Below are positions 7,057 to 58,295 of a DNA stretch of 64,000 bases, in pieces. The stretch spans positions 1-64,000 of the forward strand of contig SVHN01000002.1 of the NCBI GenBank assembly GCA_015055805.1. The letters run 5' to 3'. This DNA is from Clostridiales bacterium (GTDB taxonomy: Bacteria; Bacillota; Clostridia; Christensenellales; Borkfalkiaceae). Under the pieces are notes generated by a model. It saw nothing but the letters and a program-made list of their open reading frames with translations, did no database searches and had not been told where the DNA came from. The translations under genes were made by a program, and so were the position numbers. The stretch's first letter is position 1, and every line of letters begins with the position of its first letter.

Positions 7057-7166
7057 TAAAAAAACACCTCCGCTTTAATTTTTCAGCTTTGGTGCTTTTA
7101 ATATTTTTAGTGAATAAGTAAAAGTGAATAGTGAATAGTTGCGGTATAATTATTAAATATAGCAAC

Positions 7167-7293
7167 GTTAAACGGATTAGATACAAGCAATACAAGGAAA
7201 GTGAAGTTTTACGAAGTGCGTGTACTTTTACGTACACAATCAAGCAAATCTGAAGTTTGACGAACTATTACGAAGTATGTAAGCCAGTTAAAC
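7167..7293. repeat. Palindromic intergenic element, copy 1 (subtype A)
   Basis: About 125 bp bounded by GTTAAACGGATTAGATAC and, inverted, by GTATGTAAGCCAGTTAAAC. The core holds the perfect stem GTGTAC/GTACAC (7220-7225 and 7232-7237) followed by AATCAAG. The same core and layout occur in copy 4 at 32418-32543. It shares the terminal GTTAAAC with copy 2, so the two are fused head to tail. No coding potential. Confidence 0.75.
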
Positions 7294-7413
7294 GGGTTAG
7301 ATGCGAGTTGGGCTAGGCTCGCTCAAAGGGAAGGACTGCCGTGACCGTCTGGTCATAAAGGTCTTCCCTTTAGAGCAGTAAACGACGCCCAACGAAGTAT
7401 ATAAGCCGTTTAA
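7287..7413. repeat. Palindromic intergenic element, copy 2 (subtype B)
   Basis: Outer stem TTAAACGG (7288-7295) pairs with CCGTTTAA (7406-7413). The inner stem AAAGGGAAG (7325-7333) pairs perfectly with CTTCCCTTT (7363-7371), and the apical hairpin is TGACC-GTCT-GGTCA (7342-7355). Copy 3 has the same apical hairpin and the same conserved GGCTCGC and GCAGTAAACGACG boxes but a quite different, equally perfect inner stem. The right arm overlaps the stop codon of the MurF-like gene, so the element sits exactly at that gene's 3' end. Confidence 0.78.
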
Positions 7414-9092
7414 GAGTAGTTGTCGGGCAAATCATTCTCAAACAACACCACGTCACCTTCAGCCATAATCTGGTTGAGAAGATCGTTGCCTTTGTTTAGG
7501 GTTTTGGCAAACTTAATGTTGTCGGTACTCATGCCGCCGTCTTTAAGTCCGTTTATAAGCATCTCCGCGTTGTGCTTGCCTATTACTATGACGATATCAG
7601 CGTGTTTAGCAAGGGTTTTACCAAATTCAAGGTTTAAGACGTTTTCCATTTTACCGAGTTCGACAAGCCCTGGTGTCAATACGATTTTTCTGCCCTCGAA
7701 AGTATCAAGCACTTCCATTGCCGCTTTTACGCCGTCCTCGTTAGAGTTATAACTGTCGTCGATTATGACTATATTTTTATTGTTGGGCATAAGTTCTAAC
7801 CTATGACCTATCGACTGTATTCTGCTTATGCCAGCCGCTATTTCCGTGCTTGTGAGCCCGATTTTATAGGCAACGCCTGCGGCAAGACAAATGTTTCTTA
7901 CGCTGTGTTTACCGAGAAGTACGGTTGAACACTCGACGGGTTTTTCGCCCTTTATATTGAGCATAAACGACATACCTTTGACGTCGGTTTTAATATCGGT
8001 CGCGGTAACCAAGTTATCGTCGCCACTAATACCAGTAGAATATTTTTCGCCGTCAAACTTATGATAGAGTTCTTGGGCGTTAGGATTATCGGCAGAGAAA
8101 ACACCCACACCGTCTTTATCCATGTATTCAAAGAGCTCGAACTTAGTTTTCTTAATGTTTTCTAAACTTCCGAAAGTTTCTAAGTGCTGATTGTTTACGC
8201 CTGTCAATATTCCGTAGTTAGGCTTAACTAGTTTTGATAGGGATTTAATATCGCCGACGTTTCTTGCGCCCATTTCTGCGATAAATACGTCGTGCGTACT
8301 ATCAAGCGATTTTAAAGTTATTGCTATTCCCAAAGGCGTGTTATACGATTCGGGGGTAGCAAGCACTCTGTACTTTTGAGAAAGCAAGGTCTTTAAGATT
8401 TCCTTGACCGAAGTCTTTCCAAAGCTTCCTGTAATACCAACTTTTATAACGCTTGACTTAGCAAGTTTATTTTGCGCTACACGAAGATGGTGTCTACGCA
8501 TAATCTCTTCAAACGGCTCGTTTAAGCAATAGGCAACGAACAGCAGCACAGGCGTTAAAATCGGGGTTGCGCATATAAGCGAATACCTTAACAGCGCGAC
8601 CATCGTGGCACCTATTTTAAAGGCTAATAGGTTTATAAGCGTTATAAACCCAAAAGTAAACGCGAATAGAACTAACATATAAGTTATGCAAAGTCTAACC
8701 AGTCTTTTGGTCTTTTTTAGTGGGACTTTTGCATTTACTGCGCTTTCAGATTTAATGTATAAAAGAGTGAACAGAATATAAGAAATAAACCCGACGTACG
8801 AACCTATACCCTTACCGATTAGCGGAATAGGCGAAAAGCAAGTGTTTAGCACGCAGAAGAACAGAAAACCTAAAAGGCAGAGCAGCATAAGCCTTGACAT
8901 ATACGGCGTTTCTCTGTTACCCAGCCACTTAAAGTATCTAGTTCCGTGATAACCGCATTGTTGAAGAACGAGTAAAAACTTCATACTCGCAAAGTAAAGT
9001 AATACGGCGTTTGCCGCGCTCATTATTAAATATACGGCTAGCTGCGCACCTGTAAACAACTCGCCAAAGGTCTGTACGCTTGATGGAAACAT
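7410..9092 (-). CDS. Membrane-anchored MurF-like Mur ligase
   Basis: Protein of 560 residues. The first 200 residues hold about six hydrophobic helices, which normal MurF lacks. A cytoplasmic Mur-ligase core follows, with the ATP loop GITGSFGKTSVK near residue 218, the central-domain signature YNTPLGIAITL, the AEMGARNVGDI block and the C-terminal-domain motif DDSYNSNEDGVKAAM. These are MurF features, the enzyme adding D-Ala-D-Ala to the UDP-MurNAc-tripeptide. The N-terminal substrate-binding domain of canonical MurF has been replaced by the membrane domain, so the substrate may be lipid-linked or altered. The neighbouring ddl gene supports a D-Ala-D-Ala-related role. Not certain whether it is the essential MurF. 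Confidence 0.75.
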   Translation of the reverse strand: MFPSSVQTFGELFTGAQLAVYLIMSAANAVLLYFASMKFLLVLQQCGYHGTRYFKWLGNRETPYMSRLMLLCLLGFLFFCVLNTCFSPIPLIGKGIGSYVGFISYILFTLLYIKSESAVNAKVPLKKTKRLVRLCITYMLVLFAFTFGFITLINLLAFKIGATMVALLRYSLICATPILTPVLLFVAYCLNEPFEEIMRRHHLRVAQNKLAKSSVIKVGITGSFGKTSVKEILKTLLSQKYRVLATPESYNTPLGIAITLKSLDSTHDVFIAEMGARNVGDIKSLSKLVKPNYGILTGVNNQHLETFGSLENIKKTKFELFEYMDKDGVGVFSADNPNAQELYHKFDGEKYSTGISGDDNLVTATDIKTDVKGMSFMLNIKGEKPVECSTVLLGKHSVRNICLAAGVAYKIGLTSTEIAAGISRIQSIGHRLELMPNNKNIVIIDDSYNSNEDGVKAAMEVLDTFEGRKIVLTPGLVELGKMENVLNLEFGKTLAKHADIVIVIGKHNAEMLINGLKDGGMSTDNIKFAKTLNKGNDLLNQIMAEGDVVLFENDLPDNYS

Positions 9093-11815: not shown

Positions 11816-11857
11816 CGCAAAGCAAACAAAAAACCGCAGCGAAAAACTTCCGCCGTC

Positions 11858-11971
11858 AATTCTTTTCCCATCCGGACTTTAACCGTCGGTTTCGGAAACG
11901 CTCCGAATCAGCCAAAACTAGGCTCGCAGACTTTACTGCCGATGAGGAATTCCACCTCGCCCCAAAGAATT
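11858..11971 (-). promoter_or_regulatory. FMN riboswitch (RFN element)
   Basis: On the minus strand the element opens with AATTCTTT paired to AAAGAATT (P1), followed by GGGGCGAGGTGG, the conserved GCGAGCCT, GATTCGGA/TCCGAA hairpin, ACCGACGGT and the closing AGTCCGGATGGGA. These are the invariant boxes of the FMN aptamer. It controls ribU and probably the tsaE operon behind it, shutting expression when FMN is plentiful. Confidence 0.96.
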
Positions 11972-12023
11972 AATTATTAATTTAAGTATATTGTATTATG
12001 ATTTTAACCTTTTGTAAAGCAAA

Positions 12024-28154: not shown

Positions 28155-28252
28155 AGTAATCTCCTAAACGTTTATAAAAACATTTTACCACAAGCCTATC
28201 AATTTGTAAAATTTTTTTACAAAAAAATATAACGTCAAACCCAAACAGTAAA

Positions 28253-28380
28253 TTTAAATGGGTTAGATGCAAGTTATGCTAGGCTCGCGATGCGTTTGGG
28301 GTGAAATTGACCTTGTTGGTCATTGAAGTCCAAACGCAAAGCAGTAAACGACGCAGAACGCCGCATATAAACCATTTAAA
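28253..28380. repeat. Palindromic intergenic element, copy 3 (subtype B)
   Basis: Outer stem TTTAAATGG (28253-28261) pairs perfectly with CCATTTAAA (28372-28380). Inner stem TGCGTTTGG (28291-28299) pairs with CCAAACGCA (28330-28338); apical hairpin TGACC-loop-GGTCA is at 28308-28322. Compared with copy 2 (7287-7413), both stems have different sequences but identical position and perfect pairing. Confidence 0.8.
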
Positions 28381-28848
28381 AAATTCAAAAAGCAATAACT
28401 ACAAGTTACTGCTTCCTGCACGACTTTGACGTTGCCCCCTTGACCGACTAGTGCTCCGTAGCATAGCGGAGGAGAAGGAAGCAATATTCAGTTGTTACTC
28501 AAATAAATGAAAAAGCCTATAGAAATTCAAAAAGCAATAACTACAAGTTACTGCTTCCTGCACGACTTTGACGTTGCCCCCTTGACCGACTAGTGCTCCG
28601 TAGCATAGCGGAGGAGAAGGAAGCAATATTCAGTTGTTACTCAAATAAATGAAAAAGCCTATAGAAATTCAAAAAGCAATAACTACAAGTTACTGCTTCC
28701 TGCACGACTTTGACATTGCCCCCCTTGACCGACTAGTGCTCCGTAGCATAGCGGAGGAGAAGGAAGCAATATTCAGTTGTTACTCAAATAAATGAAAAAG
28801 CCCATAGAAATTCAAAAAGCAATAACTACAAGTTACTGCTTCCTGAAT
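28381..28848. repeat. Three tandem 142-143 bp repeats plus partial fourth copy
   Basis: Units start with AAATTCAAAAAGCAATAAC at 28381, 28523, 28665 and (partial) 28808. They are almost identical; the third unit has one extra C in its C-run and one G-to-A change. Each contains TGCTTCCT paired with AGGAAGCA and an inner CTCCG-TAGCATAG-CGGAG hairpin, so each can fold. A 48-codon frame is open only in unit 3 (28649-28795, beginning MKKPIEIQKAITTSYC) and is broken in the others by the missing C. There is no ribosome binding site at the usual distance. Confidence 0.9.
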
Positions 28849-32417: not shown

Positions 32418-32543
32418 TTTTAAGGGGTTATATACGAGCAAGAGCAGGAAAACTAGGATTTCAGAAGTGCGTGTACTGAGCGTACACAATCAAGGAAATC
32501 CGACGTTTGACAAACTTTTGCGACGTATATAGCCCCTTAAAAA
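32418..32543. repeat. Palindromic intergenic element, copy 4 (subtype A)
   Basis: Outer arms of 17 bases (from TTTTAAGGGG at 32418, and its complement ending at 32543) match at 16 positions. Inner GGATTTC (32456-32462) pairs with GAAATCC (32495-32501), enclosing GTGTAC-TGAGC-GTACAC (32471-32487). The right arm ends one base before the stop codon of tex, the same placement as copy 2 at the MurF-like gene. Confidence 0.8.
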
Positions 32544-34829
32544 TTATCTACCGAACTTTTTCAAAAGAAGTTCGCGCAATTCTTCGTCGGTTAATTGACG
32601 TTTTTCTTCACGTTTTTTCTCGGCGTCACGGCGACCTTGTTTTCTTTCCCTATCGGTCTTTTGGTTGCCAACCGCTATACCGTGGGGAAGTTCGGTCGTT
32701 TTCATAGTAAGCGAAATCTTTTTCTTTACCGTATCAACGCCTAGAACCTTTACCTTGACCAAATCGCCAACCTTTAACACGTCGGACGGGTGCTTAACGT
32801 AATTATCGGAAATTTGGGAAATATGCACTAAGCCGTCTTGATGCACGCCGATATCGACGAACACGCCGAAGTCTATTACGTTTCTTACCGTGCCGTTAAT
32901 TTCCATACCTTCTTTTAGGTCGGATAAATCCATAAGGTCACTTCTAAGTATGGGCTTTGGTAAACTATCACGAATATCCCTACCCGGTTTTAAAAGTTCT
33001 GCGGAAATATCTTTTAACGTTGGAACACCAACGCCGCTAATCTCTGCCGTCTTTTCCCAACCTTTCTCTTCTATTCTGGCAATTAAATCCCCTATTTTGC
33101 CTTCTGCTACGTCGTTAAGAGTATAACCGACAGCGTCGAGAAGTTTTTCTACCGCAGGGTAAGATTCGGGGTGAACGCCCGTGTTATCGAGAACGTTCCC
33201 GCCGATAATACGCAAGAATCCCGCGCATTGCTCAAACGCTTTCGCACCTAGTTTTTTAACTTTTAATAAATCTTCTCTCTTAATGAACGGCTGTTCCGCT
33301 CTATACTTAACTATCTCTTTTGCTATACCTTTATTAAGTCCTGCAACGAACGACAATAAACTAGGTGATGCGGTGTTAAGGTCAACGCCGACGCTGTTTA
33401 CGCAGTCTTCAACTACGCCGCCCAAAATTTCTTCAAGTCTTGCTTCCGGCATATCGTGCTGATACTGACCTACGCCTATGGACTTAACGTCAATCTTTAT
33501 TAATTCTGCCAAGGGGTCTTGAAGTCGTCTTGCGATTGATACCGCGCTTCTCTGCGCAGGTTCGTAATCGGGAAATTCTTCCGCGCCGAGTTTGCTCGCG
33601 CTATAAACTGACGCGCCAGCCTCGTTTACTACGGCGTACGAAAGGTCAAGACCGCTCTCTTTAATCATGTTCGCAACGAATATTTCCGATTCCTTGCTTG
33701 CCGTTCCGTTACCGATTGAGATAATGGAAACGCCGTGTTTCTTTATAAGTTTTAGTAATATCGCTTGCGCTTCTTCAATCCTATTCTGTGGCGGAGTGGG
33801 GAACACTACCGCAGTATCTAAGACGTTGCCTTCGGAATCTATTACCGCTATCTTACAGCCCGTTCTGTACGCAGGGTCTAAACCTAGAATAATCTTGCCT
33901 TTAAGCGGTGGCTGTAAAAGCAAGGGACGAAGATTGACTTCAAACATCTTTATAGCCTGTTCACTTGCTTTCTCTGTCAAATCACTTCTAACTTCCCTTT
34001 CTATCGACGGGAAAATAAGACGAGAATAAGCGTCTGCCGCAGCTTCAGCAACTATCTTTGCAGACGGTGTATCGTTCTTAACGTATATAGAGTTAATCGC
34101 GCTTATAAACGCGTCGTTATCAACGGTTATATTAACGCGTAAACACTCTTCCTTTTCACCGCGGTTTACGGCAAGAATTCTGTGTGAAGGAATTTTTGCA
34201 ATCTTTTCAGAATAATCAGCGTACATATCGTAAGTCTTAGCGTTTTCATTTTCCAAAAGTTTGCAAGAAAGTTCGCCGACTTCGCCTATCTTCTTCCTTA
34301 AAGTTTTTCTAAGTTCTGCATCGTCGGAAATACGCTCTGCAATAATATCAGCCGCGCCTGCTAACGCGCTATTTTCGTCAGCAACGCCCTTTTCTTCGCT
34401 GATAAACTCTTTGGCTTTTACCAACACGTCGCCGTCAGACTGTTCCAAAATAAACTCTGCAAGCGGAGTAAGACCTTTTTCTGCAGCAACACTCGCGCGC
34501 GTTTTTCTTTTCTGTTTGTAAGGACGGTAAACGTCTTCCGCCTCAGTAAGCGTTTCCGCGCCGGCAAGGGCTATCATAATCTCGTCGGTCATCTTGCCCT
34601 GTTCGGTTATTGACGAAACGATTTCTTCCTTTCTTTTATCAAGGTTTCTTAGGTATTTAAGCCTATCGAAAAACTCACGCAACACTTGGTCGTCACAACT
34701 GCCCGTCGCCTCTTTCCTATACCTTGCTATAAACGGAATAGTGTTGCCGTCGTCAATAAGCTGAATAATGTTTGCCGAGTGGTCGGCTCTGATGCTAAAT
34801 TCTTTACTGAGTTTAATTGAGTAATCCAT
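32544..34829 (-). CDS. tex: Tex-like transcription accessory protein
   Basis: RNA-binding protein of 761 residues. The N-terminal helical region, the YqgF-like RNase H fold (KIILGLDPAYRTGCKIAVID), helix-hairpin-helix segments (NSVGVDLNTASPSLL, LGAKAFEQCAGFLRI) and a C-terminal S1 domain (GMEINGTVRNVIDFGVFVDIG) appear in the usual order. Full length. A basic tail of about 60 residues follows the S1 domain. Role in transcription or RNA metabolism in Firmicutes is poorly defined. Confidence 0.95.
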   Translation of the reverse strand: MDYSIKLSKEFSIRADHSANIIQLIDDGNTIPFIARYRKEATGSCDDQVLREFFDRLKYLRNLDKRKEEIVSSITEQGKMTDEIMIALAGAETLTEAEDVYRPYKQKRKTRASVAAEKGLTPLAEFILEQSDGDVLVKAKEFISEEKGVADENSALAGAADIIAERISDDAELRKTLRKKIGEVGELSCKLLENENAKTYDMYADYSEKIAKIPSHRILAVNRGEKEECLRVNITVDNDAFISAINSIYVKNDTPSAKIVAEAAADAYSRLIFPSIEREVRSDLTEKASEQAIKMFEVNLRPLLLQPPLKGKIILGLDPAYRTGCKIAVIDSEGNVLDTAVVFPTPPQNRIEEAQAILLKLIKKHGVSIISIGNGTASKESEIFVANMIKESGLDLSYAVVNEAGASVYSASKLGAEEFPDYEPAQRSAVSIARRLQDPLAELIKIDVKSIGVGQYQHDMPEARLEEILGGVVEDCVNSVGVDLNTASPSLLSFVAGLNKGIAKEIVKYRAEQPFIKREDLLKVKKLGAKAFEQCAGFLRIIGGNVLDNTGVHPESYPAVEKLLDAVGYTLNDVAEGKIGDLIARIEEKGWEKTAEISGVGVPTLKDISAELLKPGRDIRDSLPKPILRSDLMDLSDLKEGMEINGTVRNVIDFGVFVDIGVHQDGLVHISQISDNYVKHPSDVLKVGDLVKVKVLGVDTVKKKISLTMKTTELPHGIAVGNQKTDRERKQGRRDAEKKREEKRQLTDEELRELLLKKFGR

Positions 34830-58101: not shown

Positions 58102-58116
58102 AAGTTTAGAAATTAT

Positions 58117-58260
58117 AAGTCCGGTAGGTAAGGCTACCATAGGGATACGGACTGCTACCGCGAAATGGTGGAGACACTATTAGTTGGTGAACAGACCACG
58201 TCGAATCAAGGCGTGATTTAATGCAGTTTCACAGCCCTACGGTGCTAAAGCCAGTATGGT
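58117..58260 (+). promoter_or_regulatory. M-box (ykoK) magnesium riboswitch
   Basis: The conserved M-box strings appear in order: GGTAGGTAAGGCTACC, GGATACGGACTGCTACC, AAATGGTGGAGAC, GGTGAACAGACCACGTCGAA, ATTTAATGCAGTTTCACAGCC and GTGCTAAAGCC. It lies between the promoter and the terminator at 58296-58330, so high Mg2+ would end transcription before mgtE. Confidence 0.95.
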
Positions 58261-58295
58261 TATACGCAAAAGGTTTTTGCGTTTTATTCGGTTTA

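Follow-up and report, generated by a model that had tools for sequence, protein, structure and literature searches.

The 64-kb window (the whole stretch of 64,000 nucleotides that was analysed) includes four elements recognised by models of two element types, all on the minus strand, which is the direction of their upstream genes. The first type A element (7286–7415; model R1, 124.2 bits) follows a Mur-ligase-domain gene (7410–9092, minus strand; Pfam PF08245/PF02875), and its basal helix P1 takes in the stop codon of this gene at 7410–7412. A type B element (7167–7292; model R2, 111.7 bits) lies in tandem behind it in the gene direction. The second type B element (32418–32542; R2, 128.7 bits) is located directly after the stop codon (32544–32546) of a Tex gene (32544–34829, minus strand; Pfam Tex domains). 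The second type A element (28252–28381; R1, 116.5 bits) comes, in the gene direction, after a 142-bp tandem repeat (28381–28845, 3.3 copies), the unit of which ends on the minus strand in a hairpin and a T-run. This repeat is possibly a tandem small-RNA gene, and terminator-like sequences similar to the end of its unit precede elements in two other genomes (L100 in G008 and L113 in G034). An initial annotation had described four palindromic elements in the window, and all four were recovered in place together with the stems quoted for them; the first two of its copies overlap by 7 bases and are arranged head to tail. Rfam matches further place an FMN riboswitch at 11856–11973 and an M-box riboswitch at 58113–58267.

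As read from the sequence, the 5′ strand of P1 in element 7286–7415 (7397–7413, minus strand) lies on the gene side, holds the stop TAA, and pairs with the 3′ strand at 7288–7304 (minus strand). The 5′ strand of the second helix, P2 (7387–7393, minus strand; helix 2 of the covariation test below), pairs with 7307–7313 (GTTGGGC/GCCCAAC). A variable inner stem (7325–7371, minus strand; helices 4 and 5 of the test) is formed by AAAGGGAAG at 7325–7333 with CTTCCCTTT at 7363–7371, and within it lies an apical hairpin made of TGACC (7342–7346) and GGTCA (7351–7355), also on the minus strand. The apex TGACC..GGTCA is found in both type A elements (7286–7415 and 28252–28381), and GTGTAC..GTACAC in both type B elements (7167–7292 and 32418–32542). 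Types A and B have the outer arms, P1 and P2, in common and differ inside. The outer stem of the 7167–7292 copy is weaker (TTAAACGG against CCAGTTAA). Additional core types are present elsewhere; one of these, type D, is found in elements that are longer and have additional hairpins within this frame (L005 and L022 in G000, the genome of the window, and L285 in G019). A short repeat resembling GTGAATAGTTGCGGTATAA adjoins several elements, in the window at 7110–7160 and also at L024, L032 and L126, and is perhaps another small repeat family.

Many further copies were found in G000 (1.73 Mb, 20 contigs, 95.7% complete) and in its relatives. A DNA search of the genome, with the query counted in each case, found 24 matches for type A and 12 for type B. 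At E values up to 1, the type A model gave 48 matches and the type B model 50, largely at the same places. Forty-five copies of ~125 bp with inverted ends (P1/P2), a few of them shortened, were catalogued. The family is therefore dispersed, short and non-coding and has inverted repeats at its termini, which agrees with the MITE-like character suggested in the initial annotation.

Among 61 genomes, the type A model matched 25, namely G000 and 24 of the 36 relatives from the same genus, with none of the 24 from other families. A genus-restricted family, as suggested by the last figure, was ruled out in a wider sample, where matches were present in 41 of 297 genomes of the order and in 20 of 125 genera; both counts are lower bounds, as stricter filters were used and few candidates (11) were scored per genome. 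A pattern scan matched one named record, a Clostridia metagenome-assembled genome from yak rectum, and possibly left out near records. Phage and plasmid collections gave no match to one query, and in viral contigs one pattern gave 0 matches and the other 4, none of which matched model R1. The host range observed for the family is uncultured gut Clostridia.

Covariation was tested in the 24 type A copies of the genome. In this alignment 93.5% of 880 cells pair, as compared with a mean of 74.1% (s.d. 0.9) after shuffling and at most 43.3% with slid partners, the latter comparison being favourable to the tested structure because this was the consensus fold of the same alignment to which P1 had been added by us. 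Double changes occur in 27 of 38 pairs (18.8 after shuffling), and the covariation score is 0.458 (0.145 shuffled, at most 0.116 slid). None of 500 shuffles reached the observed pairing, double-change count or covariation score, and all five helices covary beyond both the shuffled and the slid controls. In type B alone (14 copies), double changes were found in 22 of the 37 predicted pairs. Stem changes are hence not random with respect to pairing, and covariation far above controls upholds the proposal that the family is structured, spreads and undergoes compensatory changes in its stems.

The position of the elements was examined for 145 of them, 45 from G000 and 100 from relatives, the latter being mainly the best matches listed and not a full census. 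In the gene direction, 89 begin at a stop codon (open frames of 50 codons or more, offset −7 to +16, only stops in the gene direction counted), 28 lie behind another element, 24 lie right after an intrinsic terminator, and 4 have another position. The corresponding numbers for 435 random TTTAA sites on either strand were 60, 48, 37 and 290, and these sites, being drawn from the same loci, are themselves enriched for element surroundings. Matches in other genera are placed similarly, 18 of 22 being at −9 to +14 from the stop of an open frame. The stop held in P1 may be TAA, TAG or TGA. Ten upstream genes tested by Pfam (those for Mur ligase and Tex in the window, and for Hsp70, GAPDH, QueA, NifU, DegV, SRP54 and ribosomal proteins S9 and L32) are housekeeping genes and not cassettes.

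The same gene ends bear elements in different species. At dnaK, an element lies right after the stop codon in 4 of 30 loci read (G000 included), with three kinds of core, and many of the loci lacking an element show just a conserved terminator-like hairpin. Orientation by replication rather than by the gene was considered for two apparent exceptions (C16:44075 and C16:44279) and rejected, as the first of them in the gene direction comes after the L32 gene. Two further elements, L110 and L192, lie directly behind the terminator of what we take from its motif to be a T-box leader.

The extent of P1 was determined using 118 unique anchored elements (119 of the 145 could be anchored and 26 were left out). 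Watson-Crick pairing is mostly 0.75–0.94 as far as position 17; exceptions are position 5, a conserved mismatch (0.08), and positions 9 (0.47) and 11 (0.64), where pairing is lower. It decreases to 0.55 at position 18 and 0.20 at position 19 and is at background beyond, which defines a helix of 17–18 bp. Scored copy by copy with a mismatch-tolerant rule, the end of the helix is more diffuse than the column profile suggests, and falls at 16–19 in 63 of the 118 elements, before 12 in 16, and at 20 or later in 32.

The relation of P1 to the host gene is seen most directly at queA, which was found in 40 of 44 genomes. Thirty-one loci were read and one (L293), which did not fit the end pattern, was dropped; the remaining 30 genomes include 10 with an intact element, 3 with a remnant and 17 without an element. 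The encoded protein has a conserved end (FSFGD...), and the core of the intact element begins right after the stop codon. Thus, the 5′ strand of P1 is made up of the last codons of queA and its stop. The 3′ strand pairs with the gene end of its own species at 10.5 of 12 positions, as compared with 6.97 for the gene ends of other species; the own end is best or tied in 9 of 10 cases, and none of 20,000 permutations was as good.

The same holds outside the genus, where the arm pairs with its own flank at 15.63 of 18 positions and with other flanks at 9.78, the own flank being best in 19 of 19 cases with none of 20,000 permutations as good. This test included 19 of 23 matches (omitted were both matches of L308 and the second copy in each of L321 and L326), of which L325 represents another genus of the same family and 18 represent other families. 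The 3′ strand of P1 therefore mirrors, as an inverted complement, the gene end of its own species. With regard to target-site duplication, the outer arms were found to be inverted and not direct. Duplication of TTAA or TA fits many copies, but it was not adopted, as some arms that lack TTAA or TA are still inverted copies.

Comparison of near-identical copies indicates that core and P1 can part. The elements L047 and L050, at different loci of G000, are 100% identical over the P2-core-P2 segment and differ in P1, where the own strands pair at 9 of 10 positions and the exchanged strands at 5. In 42 near-identical pairs, tandem neighbours among them, own P1 pairing is 7.76 as compared with 6.37 for cross pairing, and in the 21 pairs with 5′ arms differing at 4 or more of 10 positions the values are 7.29 and 4.74. 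When the 3′ arms were permuted within families, all 2000 permutations fell below the observed value of 355 (mean 313, maximum 346). Since near-identical cores can carry different, self-matching P1s, the outer stem is not accounted for by gradual compensatory drift alone. On the other side, copies with a TAAGGG arm have the same P1 at different loci and genes, hence some units move with their P1. As part of P1 travels with the core in some copies, both modes exist, and P1 is not always newly made.

These data divide the initial interpretation of the outer stem, according to which its paired changes reflect either selected folding or an element that spreads as a structure. The spreading structure is retained. 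Simple selection on folding is disfavoured, given the host origin of the 5′ strand at queA and its mirroring in the 3′ strand, the matching to own flanks in other genera, and the identical cores with different matched outer stems.

The explanation that we prefer, with a probability of roughly 0.45, is that the elements are non-autonomous mobile hairpins of gene 3′ boundaries, in which P1 is completed with host flank sequence, probably by fold-back (template-switch) synthesis, and then maintained. A miniature non-coding hairpin of ~125 bp, MITE-like and non-autonomous, with a modular core in a conserved P1/P2 frame, would reach a new locus and settle, in the gene direction, on a stop codon or immediately after an intrinsic terminator. 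On arrival of the core, the 3′ strand of P1 would be made by fold-back DNA synthesis copying the adjoining host flank, and each copy would then bear an inverted copy of the end of its gene. Pairing in P1 may subsequently be kept by further template switching and/or by selection on the folded antisense strand, as ssDNA or RNA. Template switching, which we infer as the maker of P1, is in the available text of PMC8794818 a route to perfect stems, a single event being enough for a stem without mismatches or for compensatory changes at several bases. The 17–18 bp limit is no obvious product of ordinary template switching and counts against this explanation.

A search of G000 with arm patterns allowing up to 3 mismatches (22 and 21 matches, compared by eye with the catalogue) revealed no parent insertion sequence with the same ends and no arm pair enclosing a longer element. 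The one new place found, an orphan 5′ arm at C2:42369, was considered as a parent candidate and proved to be a remnant at queA-tgt. These negative results, like the failure to find a mobilising enzyme in two families searched (Y1_Tnp in G000 and the integron integrase in 44 genomes, see below), count against the preferred explanation.

Appreciably less probable is a functional structured RNA, in the 3′-UTR or antisense, with all helices including P1 kept by compensatory selection. P1 would in that case use the gene end since overlap with the stop codon is required of the motif, which might need, for instance, to be unfolded by the ribosome at termination or to define where the mRNA ends. The strong covariation of all five helices beyond controls, the occurrence of all three stop codons inside P1, and the recurrence of elements at the same gene ends across species are consistent with such an RNA. 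A compensated double change in G024 and G067, whose queA elements are similar, fits plain compensatory evolution.

Further support for an RNA comes from the strand that folds. In 71 representatives, the non-canonical cells of P1 on the gene strand include 55 A.C and 17 G.U, as compared with 87 and 91 outside P1 (Fisher p 7e-5), and those of P2 include 19 A.C and 7 G.U. The A.C cells of the gene strand correspond to G.T or G.U on the antisense strand, and non-canonical pairs thus speak for folding of the antisense strand. For 63 of the 71 representatives (and for 133 of all 145 copies, which are not independent), the antisense strand also gives the more stable core fold. This asymmetry of non-canonical pairs is a further sign of selection, which probably acts on the fold in addition. 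However, G.U pairs in the predicted folds hardly differ between the strands (2.84 and 2.71), which weakens the case for antisense folding.

Other data are less easily reconciled with a functional RNA. No promoter-like signal was found on the antisense strand beyond the elements, where 29 of 143 reached at least 9 of 12, as compared with 30 on the sense strand and 31 after shuffling. In Rfam 15, no family reached the gathering score at the elements of the window, and 8 other element loci gave only 6 sub-threshold matches, all at L163. The structured RNA named in the initial annotation would then belong to no Rfam family at gathering score, and its better-kept folding strand would be antisense to the gene. 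Moreover, the 24 of 145 elements beyond a terminator and the identical cores with different, already matched P1s speak against it, as do the cores at orthologous loci, which are no more alike than others (0.602 in 33 pairs from different species, taken from loci with one anchored element, and 0.625 in 5964 other between-species pairs).

An unlikely variant would have a folded antisense intermediate, ssDNA or RNA, moving cores to the ends of translation or transcription, with a dedicated enzyme copying 17–18 nt of the gene end into the opposite arm. In the literature searched, no target-templated terminal repeat was found in any other element.

It is slightly more doubtful still that the P1 frames are old residents of their loci that co-evolve with the gene end, only the cores being exchanged by gene conversion or by a recombinase acting at P2. 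Such exchange would account for the replacement of type A and type B cores by one another at orthologous gene ends, for the identity of L047 and L050 that ends beside P2, and for cores that are more alike within a genome (0.683) than between genomes (0.625); core pairs more than 0.9 alike number 85 within genomes, tandem neighbours included, and 51 between genomes. Long residence is disfavoured by sister species that differ at queA, with an element in G024 and G067 and none in G004 and G064, respectively, where the empty junctions are short, and by the TAAGGG-arm copies that carry their own P1 to different genes. In addition, fragments of the queA end accompany tandem copies. In G063 (L304) each of the further tandem copies is preceded by such a fragment, one of which codes for FGDACLIL where the resident gene has DSMLVL, and in G036 (L288) a queA-end fragment likewise precedes tandem copies.

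Targeting in the manner of a guide, with the 3′ strand of P1 serving as a ~17-nt guide that pairs with a matching gene end and is renewed at each site, appears improbable. Complementarity of 17–18 nt to the flank beside a structured core would suit it, as would the greater similarity of 3′ than of 5′ arms among near-identical pairs (0.66 and 0.51 at positions 9–12). Yet the gene matched by the arm is the one at which the element is already located, and no associated nuclease or recombinase was identified in the two families searched (Y1_Tnp and the integron integrase).

Integron attC sites are located at the stop codon of a gene in one direction, fold on the antisense strand, and are more conserved in structure than in sequence. 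Despite this likeness, which extends to variable stems, attC sites and REP sequences are rejected on the features tested as very improbable, since no match to the integron integrase model TIGR02249 exceeded the cut-off in any of 44 genomes, the terminal boxes are in the reverse order by eye relative to the attC consensus, no cassettes were seen and the tested upstream genes are housekeeping genes, while the Y1 REP-associated (RAYT) transposase family (Y1_Tnp, PF01797), present in 6 of the 44 genomes, has no match in the 95.7% complete G000, contrary to the REP-like alternative of the initial annotation. Sub-threshold TIGR02249 matches in 32 of the 44 genomes, with 7 matches in G000, are presumably other tyrosine recombinases.

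The family resembles the MITE-like and BOX-like structured repeats, from which it differs by the host-matched terminal helix and by its address at stop codons or terminators. The repeats ERIC/RU-1, Correia/NEMIS and RUP are, in the available text of PMC2229807 and PMC10969869, likewise 100–200 bp long, non-coding and intergenic with inverted ends and a stable stem-loop, and most are described there with TA ends and target duplications. According to the available part of PMC2759123, some MITE-like repeats become joined to the ends of genes, to which they contribute codons or stop signals. Unlike ERIC/RU-1, Correia/NEMIS and RUP, the family described here has outer arms that are an inverted host flank, a stop or terminator site in the gene direction, and several unlike cores. 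The BOX elements of Streptococcus are also modular and structured, with end modules, a variable inside and many intergenic copies, and are compared here by description; a host-matched terminal helix is not among the features described in the available text of PMC3049150. Template-switch hairpins are described in the accessible part of PMC8794818 for RNA genes in general, and not as a gene-end element with a 17–18 bp limit.

Compensatory stem changes alone are therefore not proof of a selected RNA structure, as one strand of a helix can be host coding sequence, and the partner strand of P1 can acquire its match at the pace of the core's spread. Whether long perfect stems originate by template switching or by selection becomes directly testable in a family that occurs naturally and offers numerous cases. 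A base helix in which, for many copies, one strand is the gene's own last codons and stop, mirrored by the repeat, hints at an unusual attachment of small DNA elements to genes. Should the 17–18 bp arm be made by a dedicated mechanism, small elements would have a new means of targeting gene ends.
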